A DNA stretch of 64,000 nt from Actinomycetota bacterium (GTDB lineage Bacteria; Actinomycetota; Acidimicrobiia; IMCC26256; PALSA-555), in the NCBI GenBank assembly GCA_016870355.1, contig VGBR01000007.1, positions 62,001 through 126,000 of the forward strand, in the 5' to 3' direction. Numbering within the stretch: the first letter of the stretch is position 1; each line of letters starts with the position of its first letter. Of this stretch, positions 10,541 to 39,526 are shown in pieces. The position numbers and the translations under genes are program-made. The notes below the pieces were generated by a model. The model was not told where the DNA came from. It worked only from the letters and a program-made list of their open reading frames with translations, and searched no databases.

Positions 10541-10956
10541 TCCGGATCCTTGGCGGGCTCGAAGGCGTAGGTGACGACCTCGTTGCCGTCGGAGTCGGTG
10601 TGGAGTGGCGCGACCACGAGTCCCATGGCCATGCCGAACTCCAGGCGCGCCGGGTCGGACTCGGTGAGGCGGGTGATCACTCGGAGCCCTTCAGGCAGCT
10701 CGACCACGCCGAAGCCGAACGGGACCTCGCCTTCGTATCCCGGAGGCGCGGCGGTGACGGCCGTCCACCCCCAGAGCGTGCCGTGGTCGGAGAGATCGAC
10801 GGCCTCGACGTCCTCGGTTCCCGTGTACGGGCAGGCGGGCAGCAGCGGGAAGTGGTGCTTGCCGCTCGACGGCGAGTAGCCGCCGAGGAGATGCACCGAT
10901 CCGTCGTCGTCGACACGGAACAAGCCGTCGTGGACCGCCCGCGTGGAAGCAGTCAT
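10537..10956 (-). CDS. DUF35 OB-fold protein, partner of the thiolase
   Basis: The 139 aa protein has the DUF35 layout: a short N-terminal rubredoxin-like segment (about residues 22-48) and an OB-fold with VPFGFGVVELPEGLRV near residue 88. The zinc ribbon that normally carries two CxxC pairs is eroded: the segment reads SPSSGKHHFP..PACPYTG, keeping one of four Cys. It overlaps the thiolase gene downstream and the CoA-transferase gene upstream by 4 bp each. The likely role is a structural or substrate-channel subunit of the thiolase-like enzyme. Confidence 0.85.
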   Translation of the reverse strand: MTASTRAVHDGLFRVDDDGSVHLLGGYSPSSGKHHFPLLPACPYTGTEDVEAVDLSDHGTLWGWTAVTAAPPGYEGEVPFGFGVVELPEGLRVITRLTESDPARLEFGMAMGLVVAPLHTDSDGNEVVTYAFEPAKDPE

Positions 10957-12149
10957 ACGACGCCCTCGCTCGACAGTCGGTCGAGGTCGGCGTCGTCGAG
11001 GCCGAGCTCGCCCAGCACCTCGCGCGTGTGGGCACCGAGCCGGGGTGCGCTCGACGGAGCGGTGACGACCTCACCCACGCGACGCGGAAACGGTGCCTGT
11101 TGGCGCAGGGGGCCGACGCTCTCGTCGTCGACGGTCACCAAGTCGCCGCGCTGGGTGATGTGAGGGTCGGCGAAGATGTCGGCCGCCGTGTACGCGGTGG
11201 CGACCGGCACGTCGCAGGCCACACATCGTTCCTCGATCTGTGCGGCGGGAAGGCCGGCCGTCCACTCCGCGACGGTGCTGTTGATCTCGTCGCCATGTTC
11301 GGCGCGGTCGGCGAGGCGCGCGAACCGCGGCTCTTCGAGGAGATCGAGCCGGTCCATCGCCTTGCACAGCCGTGCAAAATTCGCGTCGGAACCTGCGACG
11401 ATGCACACGTACTTGCCGTCGGCGGTGGGGTAGTTGTCGAGTGGCGCGGAGTTCGCAAGCCGGTTGCCTTCACGATTGCGAACGACGCCGAGCTTGTCGT
11501 ATGCGGGCAACGTCCATTCGAGGATCCGCAAGGCCGCGCCATACAGCGACGCATCGATCACCGCACCCGAGCCGTTGCGAGCGTCGCGGGCATAGAGCGC
11601 CGCGCTTGCCGCGTGCGCGCAGAACACACCGGTGAGGTAGTCGGAAATCGTCACGCCGACGCGCACGGGTGGTCGATCGGGATATCCGGTGAGGTGCAGA
11701 AGCCCGCCGTATCCGATGCCGACGCGGTCGAGTCCCGGCCGTCGCGCGTACGGGCCGTCCTGACCGAAGCTGCTGATCCGCACGACGACGAGACGCGCGT
11801 CGAGATCACCGGGCCCGATGTTCCAGTGCTCGAGCGTTCCGGGTCGGAAGTTCTCGACCACCACGTCGGCAGTGGCAGCGAGCCGACGGAACAAGTCCTG
11901 ACCTTCGTCGCGCCGCAGGTCGAGGGTGACGCTCTTGCGGCCGCGCCCCTCCACCGCCCAGAACAAGGAGTAGTCGGCGCCGTCGTGGTCGGGGACGAAG
12001 GGCCCGATCTCGCGCATGAAGTCGCCAGTACCCGGCTGTTCGATCTTGATGACCTCGGCGCCCTGCTCACCGAGGAGACCGGCACAGAACGGAGCCGCGA
12101 TGCGCGTCCCGAGATCGAGGACGCGCAGGCCGTCGAGCGGACCGGCCAC
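10953..12149 (-). CDS. CaiB/BaiF (class III) CoA-transferase
   Basis: This 398 aa cytoplasmic enzyme moves CoA between carboxylic acids. The N-terminus DGLRVLDLGTRIAAP, the core VVVENFRPGTLEHW near residue 97 and the presumed catalytic Asp in VTISDYLTG (Asp170) match the family, and the length is normal. It is the third gene of a five-gene minus-strand operon (ACAD, hypothetical, this gene, DUF35, thiolase), with 4-bp overlap to the next gene and 2 bp to the previous one. The acyl donor and acceptor are unknown. Confidence 0.93.
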   Translation of the reverse strand: MAGPLDGLRVLDLGTRIAAPFCAGLLGEQGAEVIKIEQPGTGDFMREIGPFVPDHDGADYSLFWAVEGRGRKSVTLDLRRDEGQDLFRRLAATADVVVENFRPGTLEHWNIGPGDLDARLVVVRISSFGQDGPYARRPGLDRVGIGYGGLLHLTGYPDRPPVRVGVTISDYLTGVFCAHAASAALYARDARNGSGAVIDASLYGAALRILEWTLPAYDKLGVVRNREGNRLANSAPLDNYPTADGKYVCIVAGSDANFARLCKAMDRLDLLEEPRFARLADRAEHGDEINSTVAEWTAGLPAAQIEERCVACDVPVATAYTAADIFADPHITQRGDLVTVDDESVGPLRQQAPFPRRVGEVVTAPSSAPRLGAHTREVLGELGLDDADLDRLSSEGVV

Positions 12150-35876: not shown

Positions 35877-36602
35877 GTGAGCGAGGTGGAGTTTGTCGCG
35901 TGTCCTTCGGGTGGGCGGCAGGTCGAGGCGACGCGGCGGGTGCGGCTTGGGGATGTGAGCGCATCCGGTCGGCTGCGCCTCGATGCGCTCGCTGAGTACC
36001 TCCAGGATGTTGCGGCCGACGATGTCGACGACGTGGGCATCCCCGGTGCGTGGGTCCTCCGCCGACTCGCTCTCAAATTGGGAGAGCTGCCGCGATTTCG
36101 AGACGATGTGCGGCTCGTCACGTTCTGCAGCGGGATCGGCAGCCGATTCGCTGAACGGCGCACGACCGTCTTGTCCGGCGACGAGGTCGCGGTCGAGTCG
36201 GTCTCGATCTGGGTCTACATCGACGAATCGGGCAAGCCCGCGCCGCTCGATGAGTGGTTTCGCAAGTACTACGAGGTGGCCGCCGGTGATCGAAAGGTCA
36301 GTGGCCGCTTGCGGCACTCACCACCACCGCCGGACGCGGTGAAGCGAACGTGGCCGATGCGTGTCGCCGACTTCGACCTGCTTGCGCACGCCAACAACGC
36401 AGCGGCATGGCAAGCCATTGAAGAGGAGATTGCCCGGTTGGCCAAAGGACGCCGGTTGGAGAGCGCCGAGATCGAGTACCGCGCCGCCATTGACATAGGT
36501 GACGAGATCGAGATCGCAACGACGTTCGACGATCGAGAGCTGCGGTGCTGGCTGACGCGTGACGCCGACATGCGGGTGTCGGCAGTGGTGCGCGTTTCCT
36601 AG
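35877..36602 (+). CDS. acyl-ACP thioesterase (FatA-like double hotdog)
   Basis: 241 aa. Two hotdog repeats can be seen: RRVRLGDVSASGRLRLDALAEYLQDVAADD... with RFRDDVRLVTFCSGIG in the first, and VADFDLLAHANNAAAWQAIEEE in the second. The D-x-N-H/HANN segment holds likely catalytic residues. These enzymes release fatty acids from ACP in plants and some bacteria. GTG start 35877 is 18 bp after the preceding stop. Its 3' end overlaps the XRE regulator by 4 bp in convergent orientation. Confidence 0.85.
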   Translation: MSEVEFVACPSGGRQVEATRRVRLGDVSASGRLRLDALAEYLQDVAADDVDDVGIPGAWVLRRLALKLGELPRFRDDVRLVTFCSGIGSRFAERRTTVLSGDEVAVESVSIWVYIDESGKPAPLDEWFRKYYEVAAGDRKVSGRLRHSPPPPDAVKRTWPMRVADFDLLAHANNAAAWQAIEEEIARLAKGRRLESAEIEYRAAIDIGDEIEIATTFDDRELRCWLTRDADMRVSAVVRVS

Positions 36603-38683
36603 TGACGAGCGACTTGGAACGAGTCGATCGTGACTTCGGTGGTCGCCCACGCTTGCACGCCGACGCGCGTGCCACGGCATGGCGGACGCCCGAGCTCGAT
36701 CGAGCAGCGGCTCAACGCCGGCACGGTGAGGACGGGGTCGTTGTCGACGATCACGCTGAGCTGGTCCGCGCGCACTGACACCCAGACGGTGTGGCGGCCG
36801 AAGAGCAACGTCGGGTCGGTGACGCCGGCCTGAGCGATCGGGCGCCAGTGCTGACGGTTGTCCTCCCACTGGCGGACGAGGTAGCCGCCACCACCGGCGA
36901 TCGGGTCGATGTCGAACGAGTAGCCGCTCACGCGCTCGGCCTCGTCGACCGACGCCCGGAAGAGGATCCCGAACCCTGCACCGGCGCTGAAGTCGACGAC
37001 GGCTTCGACGGTGAAGTCGCCGGGTGCGTCGAGGTCGGCCAGCGCCCAGCGGGCATCGGCACGCCGCAACGTAAGTGCACCGTCGTCGGCCATGGCGGTG
37101 GCGGGGAAGATGCCGCCCACTCGCCAGTTCGAACCGGCGCGCTGGAAGCCGGAGCCCGGCGAGGCGGTCTCAGCCGGCTGTTCGTGCGCCATCCATGCGA
37201 TCGGCGGAACGCCAGGCGTCGGTACGAGTGGAACTTCGGGGATGACGAACGGTTGTCCGGTGGCGGGGGTCTCGATGACGGGTGCCGCGGCGACCGCAGC
37301 CGCGACCGGCGGTGCGACGAACGCAACCGGAGGCGCCGCGGGCGGCGCCGGCGGACTTGGTGGCGCGGGGACCGGCGGTGGTGCGAGAGCGACGGCTGGC
37401 GGCTCGGGAAGGACGACCCGCGGCTCCGGTGCACCGAGCGGTTCGAACTCCGCGGGCGGTACTTCGTCGACGTCGATGACGTCGAGTGCATCAGGCAGTG
37501 GAGCTTGCAGCGGCTGGCGGCGGGGAAGTGGTTCAGCGTCCACCCACTCATCTTCGGGAGGTTCGCTGAATGGGCCGGGTGTGAAGATCTCGGCGTTCTC
37601 GACGGAGGTCGGAACGAACGAGATCGGTTCGGGCGCGTCCGCGGGCGGTGACGGCGGCCAGGGCGCAGGTGGTTCCTCGGCGAACGCGGGCACTGCGTCC
37701 GTGAAGATGGTTGGTTCTTCGGTGTCATCGCGTTCGATGGCGGCGTCCGGCCTGTAGGAGACGGGAGGCAACGGTGCCGCGAACGGATCCTTCGGAACCG
37801 GCTCGGGTTCCAGCATCACGGGCTCCGGGTCCGCCATCGCGGTGTCGGGCTCGATGACCGGCAGCGGCGCGCCGTACGAGATCGGCATTGAATCGAACGA
37901 CGACATCGGATCGACCGGTGCAATCGGCGCAACCGGCGCGACGGGCTCGACCGGCATGGCGGCTGGCGTCGAGAACGTGTCGGTCCATCCCGCGGTCGCG
38001 GGCTGCGCGCCTGGCGGGGGCGGCGGCTCGAACACGTCGGGTGCGCGCGGCGTCGAGAAGAAGTCCACCACGGCGGCGTCGGCATTCGGCGCGTGCAGTC
38101 CAAAGTACACGTCTCCAATCACGTCACCAGTCGCGATCGTGCCAGCCGAGAGCTCGTTGCTCGGCATGATCATCGAGCGAAGACGCGCCGCCTCTTCACG
38201 CGAAATGCCGATCAGCTCGACCAGACGCGCCTCGATGCGCTCAGGGCTCCCGCCCAGCGCATCGGCGAGCGACATCAGGTCGCGCTCGCGCAGCGGGATC
38301 TTGCTCCCGGGTGCGAGGTTACGAAGCTCGTAGATCATCGCGAGGTACTCGCGCAGCATCTCGTCGTCGACGGGGTCGCGCAGGTAGCGGATGCTGTCGC
38401 CGATGGCGAGGAGGTTGAGGTCCGAGCTCACCTTGACCGGCGCACGATCGGGAAGCAGCTCGGCAACATCGACGCCGCACGATCCGGCCAGGCACCAGAG
38501 GTCGCTCTCGGGCACCGCGGCCCTACCGCTCTCGTAGGCCGCGAGCTCGCGTCGGGTCAGGCCCGCGGAGCGCGCCACCTCACTGCGCGACAGCCCTTGC
38601 TTCCGGCGGATGTGCCGGAGCTGGCGGCCGACCTCCTTGGGCGCCGAACCATCGGATTGGGCGCGATCGGCAGTCCTGGCCAT
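36599..38683 (-). CDS. XRE-family regulator with long Pro-rich linker and ConA-like C-terminal domain
   Basis: 694 aa, no signal peptide or membrane helix. Residues about 16-78 are a Cro/C1 helix-turn-helix (RHIRRKQGLSRSEVARSAGLTRRELAAYESGR). Residues 85-190 are helical (LMSLADALGGSPERIEARLVELIG). About 215-505 is a Pro/Ala/Glu-rich low-complexity linker. From about residue 510 there is a beta-rich domain (GDFTVEAVVDFSAGAGFGILFRAS, GGYLVRQWEDNRQHWRP, HTVWVSVRADQLSVIVDNDPV) that looks like a laminin-G/ConA-like or DUF1080-type sandwich, normally an extracellular sugar-binding fold. The start is ATG 38683; the longer frame is antisense to the SDR. The target is unknown, with SDR 38750 divergent 66 bp away. 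Confidence 0.82.
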   Translation of the reverse strand: MARTADRAQSDGSAPKEVGRQLRHIRRKQGLSRSEVARSAGLTRRELAAYESGRAAVPESDLWCLAGSCGVDVAELLPDRAPVKVSSDLNLLAIGDSIRYLRDPVDDEMLREYLAMIYELRNLAPGSKIPLRERDLMSLADALGGSPERIEARLVELIGISREEAARLRSMIMPSNELSAGTIATGDVIGDVYFGLHAPNADAAVVDFFSTPRAPDVFEPPPPPGAQPATAGWTDTFSTPAAMPVEPVAPVAPIAPVDPMSSFDSMPISYGAPLPVIEPDTAMADPEPVMLEPEPVPKDPFAAPLPPVSYRPDAAIERDDTEEPTIFTDAVPAFAEEPPAPWPPSPPADAPEPISFVPTSVENAEIFTPGPFSEPPEDEWVDAEPLPRRQPLQAPLPDALDVIDVDEVPPAEFEPLGAPEPRVVLPEPPAVALAPPPVPAPPSPPAPPAAPPVAFVAPPVAAAVAAAPVIETPATGQPFVIPEVPLVPTPGVPPIAWMAHEQPAETASPGSGFQRAGSNWRVGGIFPATAMADDGALTLRRADARWALADLDAPGDFTVEAVVDFSAGAGFGILFRASVDEAERVSGYSFDIDPIAGGGGYLVRQWEDNRQHWRPIAQAGVTDPTLLFGRHTVWVSVRADQLSVIVDNDPVLTVPALSRCSIELGRPPCRGTRVGVQAWATTEVTIDSFQVARH

Positions 38684-38749
38684 ACGAGCGTATCGGCCAC
38701 GAACGCCTGTCACTAAAGGGCTGAGTGGCATCCCGGTAGGGTCGATCGC

Positions 38750-39526
38750 ATGAGTGGTGCGGGGGAAGGCCAGGAGTTCGCCGATCGGGTCGCCCTGGTG
38801 ACCGGGGGCGGATCGGGATTGGGCCAGGCGGCATGCCGCTTGCTGGCCGAACGGGGTGCCCGGGTCGTCGTCGCCGACGTGAACGACGACGGTGGCGCGG
38901 CCACGGTGGCACAGTGCAAGGAGGCGGGCTCGGAGGCGCAGTTCGTCCATGCCGACGTCACCAAAGAAGAGGATGTGATCGCTGCGGTGGCCGCAGCGGT
39001 CGACACCTGGGGCCGGCTCGACGCGGCCATCAACAACGCGGGGACGACCGGTCCGTCGGCGCGGACGGCCGACTACACGCTCGAGCAATGGAACGGCGTG
39101 ATCGCGCTCAACCTCACCGGGGTCTTCCTCTGCCTCAAGCACGAGATCCCGCAGATGATCAAGCAGGGCGGCGGTGCCATCGTGAACACGTCGTCCGGCG
39201 CCGGGCTGATGGGCTTCGCGGGTCTTCCCGGTTACGTGGCCAGCAAGCACGGAGTGGTCGGGATCACCCGGGCCGCTGCGCTCGAGTACGTGAAGGCCGG
39301 CGTGCGCATCAACGCCGTCTGCCCGGGCAGCACGCGCACACCGATGCTCGAGGGCTTCATGGGCGGCGACCCGGTGATCGAGAAGGCAATGGAGCAGTCG
39401 GCGCCGATCGGGCGACTGGCGCGACCCGAAGAGATCGCCGAAGCGATGGTTTGGTTGCTCTCCGATGCGGCGTCGTTCATGGTCGGACACGCACTCGCCG
39501 TCGACGGCGGCGCGGTGGTGATGTAG
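38750..39526 (+). CDS. SDR family oxidoreductase
   Basis: 258 aa, classical fold: LVTGGGSGLGQAA, VVADVNDDGG (Asp after strand two favours NAD), NNAGTTGPS, catalytic Ser in NTSSGAGL and YVASKHG, then CPGSTRTPML. LVALSD-type ending AVDGGAVVM is typical of FabG-like and steroid-type SDRs. It is divergent from the XRE regulator, so it is a candidate for control by it. The stop is adjacent to the convergent PhyH gene. Confidence 0.94.
   Translation: MSGAGEGQEFADRVALVTGGGSGLGQAACRLLAERGARVVVADVNDDGGAATVAQCKEAGSEAQFVHADVTKEEDVIAAVAAAVDTWGRLDAAINNAGTTGPSARTADYTLEQWNGVIALNLTGVFLCLKHEIPQMIKQGGGAIVNTSSGAGLMGFAGLPGYVASKHGVVGITRAAALEYVKAGVRINAVCPGSTRTPMLEGFMGGDPVIEKAMEQSAPIGRLARPEEIAEAMVWLLSDAASFMVGHALAVDGGAVVM

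Follow-up and report, generated by a model that had tools for sequence, protein, structure and literature searches.

What kind of signal would be read by a protein that joins a DNA-binding domain and a lectin-like domain in a single cytosolic chain? The initial annotation of such a gene in the 64,000-nucleotide stretch of DNA analysed here (the window) had suggested a regulator that senses a glycan or oligosaccharide inside the cell. The open reading frame lies on the minus strand at positions 36599-38683 and encodes 694 residues with 0 internal stops. The features of the locus are as follows.

36599..38683, minus strand: complete gene of 694 residues, with a helix-turn-helix (HTH), a BldD-type C-terminal domain (CTD), a Pro-rich linker and a lectin-like beta sandwich
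38456..38635, minus strand: XRE HTH, residues 17-76 (Pfam HTH_31 and profile A4 against the BldD DNA-binding domain)
38168..38452, minus strand: predicted BldD-type CTD, residues 78-172 (NF050110, profile A5 and AF2 model)
38279..38323, minus strand: RNL-X8-RERD, residues 121-135, the counterpart of the BldD signature RXD-X8-RXXD with Asp116 replaced (ungapped alignment with BldD)
37160..38167, minus strand: low-complexity linker rich in Pro, Ala and Glu, residues 173-508, with four D.F..P motifs (composition)
36602..37159, minus strand: predicted ConA-like/CBM66-like beta-sandwich domain, residues 509-694 (AF2, Foldseek and a sub-threshold match to PF06439)
38690..38716, minus strand: promoter-like element TTAG-N15-GCCGATAC, with 6 bases between its end and the ATG
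38750..39526, plus strand: divergent SDR gene, a neighbour in genera g1, g3 and g4 only

The full domain order was found at one syntenic locus in five other genomes of the family (G001, G003, G005, G006 and G008), all Acidimicrobiia, and was partly kept at the same syntenic locus in a neighbouring family. Genes for an SDR, PhyH, a gamma-carbonic anhydrase, a thioesterase and an acyl-CoA dehydrogenase flank the locus in varying subsets. Because the same order and flanking genes recur in independent assemblies, the gene is real and not an assembly artefact; the joining of two genes by misassembly, which the initial annotation had considered, is ruled out. These results support a conserved architecture in which a soluble XRE regulator is fused through a Pro-rich linker to a confidently predicted ConA-like domain.

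The XRE HTH was borne out by Pfam HTH_31, which matched residues 17-76 above its cut-off (36.9 bits against 27, E=4.7e-09). The best PDB match of profile A4 was the DNA-binding domain of BldD (2ewt/4ob4, E=7.6e-10), and the AYERG segment of the HTH is common to BldD. The profile that matched the structures of the DNA-binding domain and CTD of BldD was built from 19 relatives. On the other hand, HTH_25, the RodZ-type model, remained below its cut-off (13.1 against 24.6 bits).

The "helical segment" that had been noted behind the HTH is recognisable as a BldD-type CTD. BldD is a regulator of actinobacterial development that is switched by c-di-GMP. The BldD model NF050110 spans residues 16-157 (E=1.9e-9) with 37.4 bits against a curated cut-off of 250, a strict test, since BldD of the same genome, a separate gene, scores 157.4 and 250 is not attained in any genome of the class. 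Profile A5, which covers the CTD only, matched the BldD CTDs 5tzf, 2mc4, 4oaz, 4oay and 5khd with E values of 1e-5 to 1e-4, and only BldD CTDs were significant. The AF2 model of residues 1-172 was moderate (pLDDT 78.5, pTM 0.61), and a Foldseek search with it returned HTH structures, with no BldD CTD among the best matches. The assignment of the CTD therefore rests on sequence profiles, and by these the middle domain is of the BldD type.

BldD and the window protein align without gaps through the c-di-GMP signature (SQRGDYNGKVLSIRQDD in BldD and ELRNLAPGSKIPLRERD here). The complete signature RXD-X8-RXXD is absent, since the window protein reads RNL-X8-RERD. Across the relatives scored, the form R-x-[not D]-X7/8-R-x-x-D was found in 35 of 35; the script searched for two Arg and one Asp, so that the result is that the counterparts of Arg114, Arg125 and Asp128, three of the four signature residues, are in register in all 35, and that the counterpart of Asp116 is present in none (0 of 35). 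The X7 spacing occurs in two relatives (L023 and L172); for L170 the script chose an overlapping X7 match, and the X8 reading gives Gln. The Asp116 position is mostly L, A, Q, T or V in the paralogues. In an independent alignment of 19 rows, R80, R121, R132 and D135 were among the 11 invariant columns.

In BldD, motif 2 together with Arg114 holds one intercalated c-di-GMP dimer, and Asp116 contacts the other dimer (PMC4151990); BldD can dimerise with just one c-di-GMP dimer bound (PMC11082216). With Asp116 replaced, the paralogues may bind c-di-GMP differently or not at all. A laboratory counterpart is the BldD CTD with Asp116 changed to Ala (PDB 5tzf/5tzg, chain SQRGAYNGKVLSIRQDD), in which the residue that these proteins naturally lack was replaced by design; that change concerns one residue and gives Ala only. 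Because the BldD-like middle domain keeps three of the four signature residues, a cyclic dinucleotide appears a likelier small-molecule input than a glycan. The window protein is thus like Streptomyces BldD in its HTH and CTD, but the family lacks Asp116, scores far below the NF050110 cut-off and forms a separate clade, and its members carry an extension, which is long and contains the lectin in the window protein and consists of a membrane helix and a tail in its relatives.

The linker is as rich in Pro, Ala and Glu as the initial annotation had described (25.5%, 16.3% and 8.3% of residues 184-508). D.F..P motifs at residues 207, 216, 235 and 299 gave a count of 4 against a shuffle mean of 0.25, which is suggestive only, the pattern having been picked post hoc. 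The claimed lack of a membrane helix also held, the 19-residue hydropathy maximum being 1.91 at residue 452, within the linker and interrupted by proline; full-length homologues of the lectin type reached maxima of 1.19-1.56. The linker changes fast, whereas the lectin is 61-87% identical to that of the other full-length members of g1, g3 and g4.

Relatives across the order consist of an HTH, a BldD-type domain, a hydrophobic stretch, often preceded by a basic cluster (RRK/RRR), and a Thr/Pro-rich tail, and the hydrophobic stretch is probably a membrane-spanning (TM) helix. The same TM plan recurs in further orders of the class, and a few genomes outside the class have it as well. The tails often end in motifs such as DDPPVSILPGE and IGDAIVIERGD; in the membrane-type relatives L040, L043, L044, L171 and L172 these recur as DDPPV(S/G)ILPGE or (I/V)GDA(I/V)VIERG.

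In a maximum-likelihood tree of 38 sequences, the BldD rows separated from the others and the seven rows of the lectin lineage grouped together, each with 100% bootstrap, and TM rows surrounded the lectin clade. One of these seven rows, L046 (G011), ends with its contig before the expected lectin and was included by lineage. Since the lectin form is a single clade among TM relatives, with BldD as the outgroup, the membrane anchor was probably exchanged once for the linker and the lectin. A search of the open-access literature found no description of such a family, and the lectin form is a clade-specific variant within an apparently undescribed family of BldD paralogues.

The modules have been lost separately in several lineages. 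G007 and G009 keep only a lectin protein of 222-223 residues at the same locus and with the same promoter-like element, which indicates that the lectin does not need the HTH. Neither of these two genomes (L038, G007:C79; L039, G009:C41) has a BldD match, and both have whiG. In G012 the HTH and the lectin remain and the BldD-type domain is not recognisable. G004 and G002 are without the lectin, both assemblies being incomplete. The relatives L116, L119, L122, L023, L164, L168 and L172 have a BldD-type domain and a membrane helix without a recognisable HTH, and the DNA-binding part is therefore dispensable in some lineages. Taken together, the lectin-only proteins and the HTH-less TM relatives indicate that the modules are not strictly coupled, and the lectin-only proteins count against a simple one-protein sensor.

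For residues 509-694, the initial annotation had suggested a ConA/laminin-G-like fold, and structure prediction agreed. An AF2 model made with nine homologues had a pLDDT of 90.2 and a pTM of 0.89 and consisted mostly of strands. In Foldseek searches of the PDB, ConA-like, CBM66 and galectin folds were the top matches, with CBM66 of Bacillus subtilis levanase first (E 2e-7, TM 0.60-0.71) and galectin-8 next. The region is thus confidently predicted to be a ConA-like beta sandwich, for which the levan-binding module CBM66 is the best PDB match. The likeness to CBM66 of SacC (4azz, 4b1m) is one of fold: sequence identity to the window domain is 14-15%, and the SacC module belongs to an extracellular levanase. 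PF06439, the 3-keto-disaccharide hydrolase domain, matched 8 of 9 domain sequences weakly (best E 2.4e-6), and the window sequence remained below its gathering score (18.9 against 26.8 bits). Residues of the lectin that are invariant, numbered as in A1, are R32, R33, R37, W38, D72, R76, D83, D85 and W105. A ConA-like sandwich may lack sugar binding, as that of BT1760 did not bind (PMC6560043).

By sequence the domain is rare, being confined, among 395 genomes of the class, to the ten with this type of locus and two distant matches. A pattern scan of 84,980 species, which reaches close relatives only, found six loci, all in metagenome-assembled genomes of Acidimicrobiia/Actinomycetota. When the lectin by itself was compared with PDB sequences, matches to armadillo-repeat designs centred on one stretch of 26-30 residues and were discarded as chance, and the pilus-protein matches of profile A1 were rejected because no single stretch passed.

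Outside the clade, the lectin has its nearest relative by sequence (E=2.3e-15) in L058 (G027:C39, frame 1), a protein of 675 residues in which a sigma-70-like (ECF) factor, a zinc-finger-like segment, a membrane helix, a Thr-rich stretch and the lectin follow one another. L059 (G074:C504, 359 residues) begins like a type IV pilin (GFALLELVVALLVVSILTGVAIPTF), and a distant relative of the lectin domain comes after this N-terminus. Except for the lectin, the domain names of L058 and L059 were read from the sequence. In L058 the lectin is joined to a sigma factor rather than an HTH and lies beyond the membrane helix and the Thr-rich stretch, and is therefore probably outside the cell; this protein, from a neighbouring family, may be a membrane sensor. 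From their sequences, the lectins of both L058 and L059 are probably extracytoplasmic.

Directly before the start codon, six lectin-type loci align at YWYAG-N15-G(C/T)CGATAY. The window element TTAG-N15-GCCGATAC matches the sigma-28/WhiG sequence TAAA-N15-GCCGATAA at 9 of 12 positions. In the upstream regions of 27 orthologs, which include lectin-type, TM and HTH-less members, the summed best match to TAAA-N15-GCCGATAA was 221, compared with 162 +/- 3.9 for shuffled regions (maximum of 1000 shuffles, 177). The score depended on the spacing, with 228 at 16, 221 at 15 and 206 at 14 nucleotides and 181-193 at the other spacings from 10 to 21. Five of the 27 regions (L045, L048, L022, L116 and L024) scored 7 or less and had no convincing element. 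As a control, 225 genes of these loci were scored; 9 matches out of 12 were reached by 9 genes, of which 7 were orthologs of the window gene. Relatives at the class level have similar sites in part. In its lectin-type form the pattern has a single match in the whole genome, at the window gene, and strict sigma-28 patterns had no match in the genome.

TAAA and GCCGATAA are the flagellar-type consensus that was used to find WhiG targets in Rubrobacter, and RsiG was present in 3 of 4 Acidimicrobiales species examined (PMC8325347). The genome carries a whiG gene above the FliA/WhiG cut-off (TIGR02479, E=8.7e-81), as do 10 of the 12 genomes of the family when the cut-off is applied to them. This sigma factor gene is followed by a peptidase-like gene, rpsB, tsf, pyrH and frr, the gene identities having been read from the sequence. 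The position of whiG beside rpsB-tsf-pyrH-frr is that of the classical Streptomyces whiG locus. An order-wide conserved upstream element resembling a sigma-WhiG promoter is well supported, and control of the gene by WhiG is likely. Since the element is retained in members without an HTH, a role as an autoregulatory operator is unlikely. ACNCWGNGT, the BldD operator consensus, had no match near the gene and, where 7.5 were expected, 1 in the whole window. The pattern TNAR-N15-GCCGAT had 72 matches and its reverse 18, an excess that codon usage may explain, and it was rejected as a genome-wide regulon list. Elsewhere in the window, a CoA-transferase family III gene (10953-12149, minus strand) has a sigma-28-like GAAA-N15-GCCGAGAA with 10 of 12 matches 51 bases upstream of its start, which may be chance.

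The SDR gene, which had been put forward as a possible target, is indeed divergent from the window gene, but this arrangement holds for part of the family only: the SDR is a neighbour in g1, g3 and g4 and not in G011 or G012. It is therefore a weak candidate for a regulatory target.

We propose that the window protein is a soluble BldD paralogue, controlled by WhiG and dimerised by c-di-GMP, that binds DNA and carries a lectin arm in place of the membrane anchor, a reading which in our judgement has an even chance of being correct. WhiG would bring about production of the protein, and c-di-GMP would dimerise its BldD-type domain. The resulting dimer would contact DNA or a partner, and the lectin on its flexible arm would tether the complex to a carbohydrate-containing component of the cell, as a counterpart of the membrane helix that would hold the relatives at the membrane. 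DNA binding, binding of a c-di-GMP dimer and sugar binding by the window protein are all inferred. Several observations stand against this proposal: Asp116 has no counterpart, and c-di-GMP binding may have changed or gone with it; outside the clade, the proteins nearest to the lectin in sequence look extracellular; G012 has no recognisable BldD-type domain, and modules are lost in G007, G009 and several TM relatives; the upstream element matches only 9 of 12 positions of the sigma-28 consensus, the stricter form of which is absent from the genome; and the N-terminal AF2 model is moderate, with Foldseek matches that lack the BldD CTD.

The glycan regulator first suggested, in which the lectin would bind a cytosolic sugar or oligosaccharide and directly alter DNA binding by the HTH, perhaps at the SDR gene, agrees with the ConA-like fold nearest to sugar-binding modules, the HTH above the Pfam cut-off, the soluble chain and the divergent SDR conserved in g1, g3 and g4. 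It is nevertheless unlikely, because a long low-complexity linker would give poor coupling between lectin and HTH, G007 and G009 retain lectin-only forms at the locus, G011 and G012 have no SDR beside the gene, and the sandwich may, like that of BT1760, lack sugar binding. The lectin-only forms of G007 and G009, which have neither HTH nor CTD, would fit a protein that is a cytosolic scaffold and not a transcription factor, with the HTH as a protein-binding or weak DNA-tethering module and with the linker motifs and the lectin recruiting partners at the envelope or a storage granule. RodZ-type proteins have the general plan of an HTH, a linker and a C-terminal beta domain, and the window protein resembles them in this plan; however, it has no membrane helix, its HTH does not reach the HTH_25 cut-off and its middle domain is of the BldD type. 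Such a RodZ-like role would fit the membrane anchoring of the relatives, the retention of the BldD-type domain and TM helix in several that lack the HTH, and the repeated D.F..P motifs. It too is improbable, since the HTH is well conserved, shares AYERG with BldD and has the BldD DNA-binding domain as its best PDB match.

The absence of Asp116 in all relatives, the piecemeal loss of modules and the lack of the lectin in the incomplete assemblies G004 and G002 could also be taken as signs of a degenerate relic. On that view the BldD-type domain would have given up nucleotide binding, the modules would be in the course of separating, and fusion with the lectin would be a chance local event with little functional value. 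We consider this very improbable, because the lectin has stayed similar among the full-length members of g1, g3 and g4 while the linker changed fast, the three remaining signature residues are invariant and the promoter-like element is kept across the order. The soluble, c-di-GMP-dimerised BldD paralogue with a lectin arm is therefore the reading that we prefer.

The gene is more informative than it appeared at first reading. In actinobacterial development c-di-GMP acts at two checkpoints, BldD and WhiG, and most of what is known of them comes from Streptomyces. If the proposal is true, a BldD-derived family with a consistently altered c-di-GMP signature and a WhiG-like promoter would join both checkpoints in a large, mostly uncultured class. 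The natural loss of Asp116 leads to the sharp prediction that one c-di-GMP dimer would be bound instead of two, and, with a lectin standing where relatives have a membrane helix, the family offers a clean natural domain swap for asking what the anchor does. A wider view, which we put forward as doubtful, is that the family is widespread in Acidimicrobiia, that it is made under WhiG control, that its naturally altered c-di-GMP site bridges two subunits with a single c-di-GMP dimer, and that in the one lineage where a cytosolic lectin replaced the anchor the c-di-GMP-WhiG network would act on or at an intracellular carbohydrate. The replacement of the membrane anchor by a linker and a sugar-binding-type domain suggests an unexplored link between c-di-GMP signalling and carbohydrate inside the cell.
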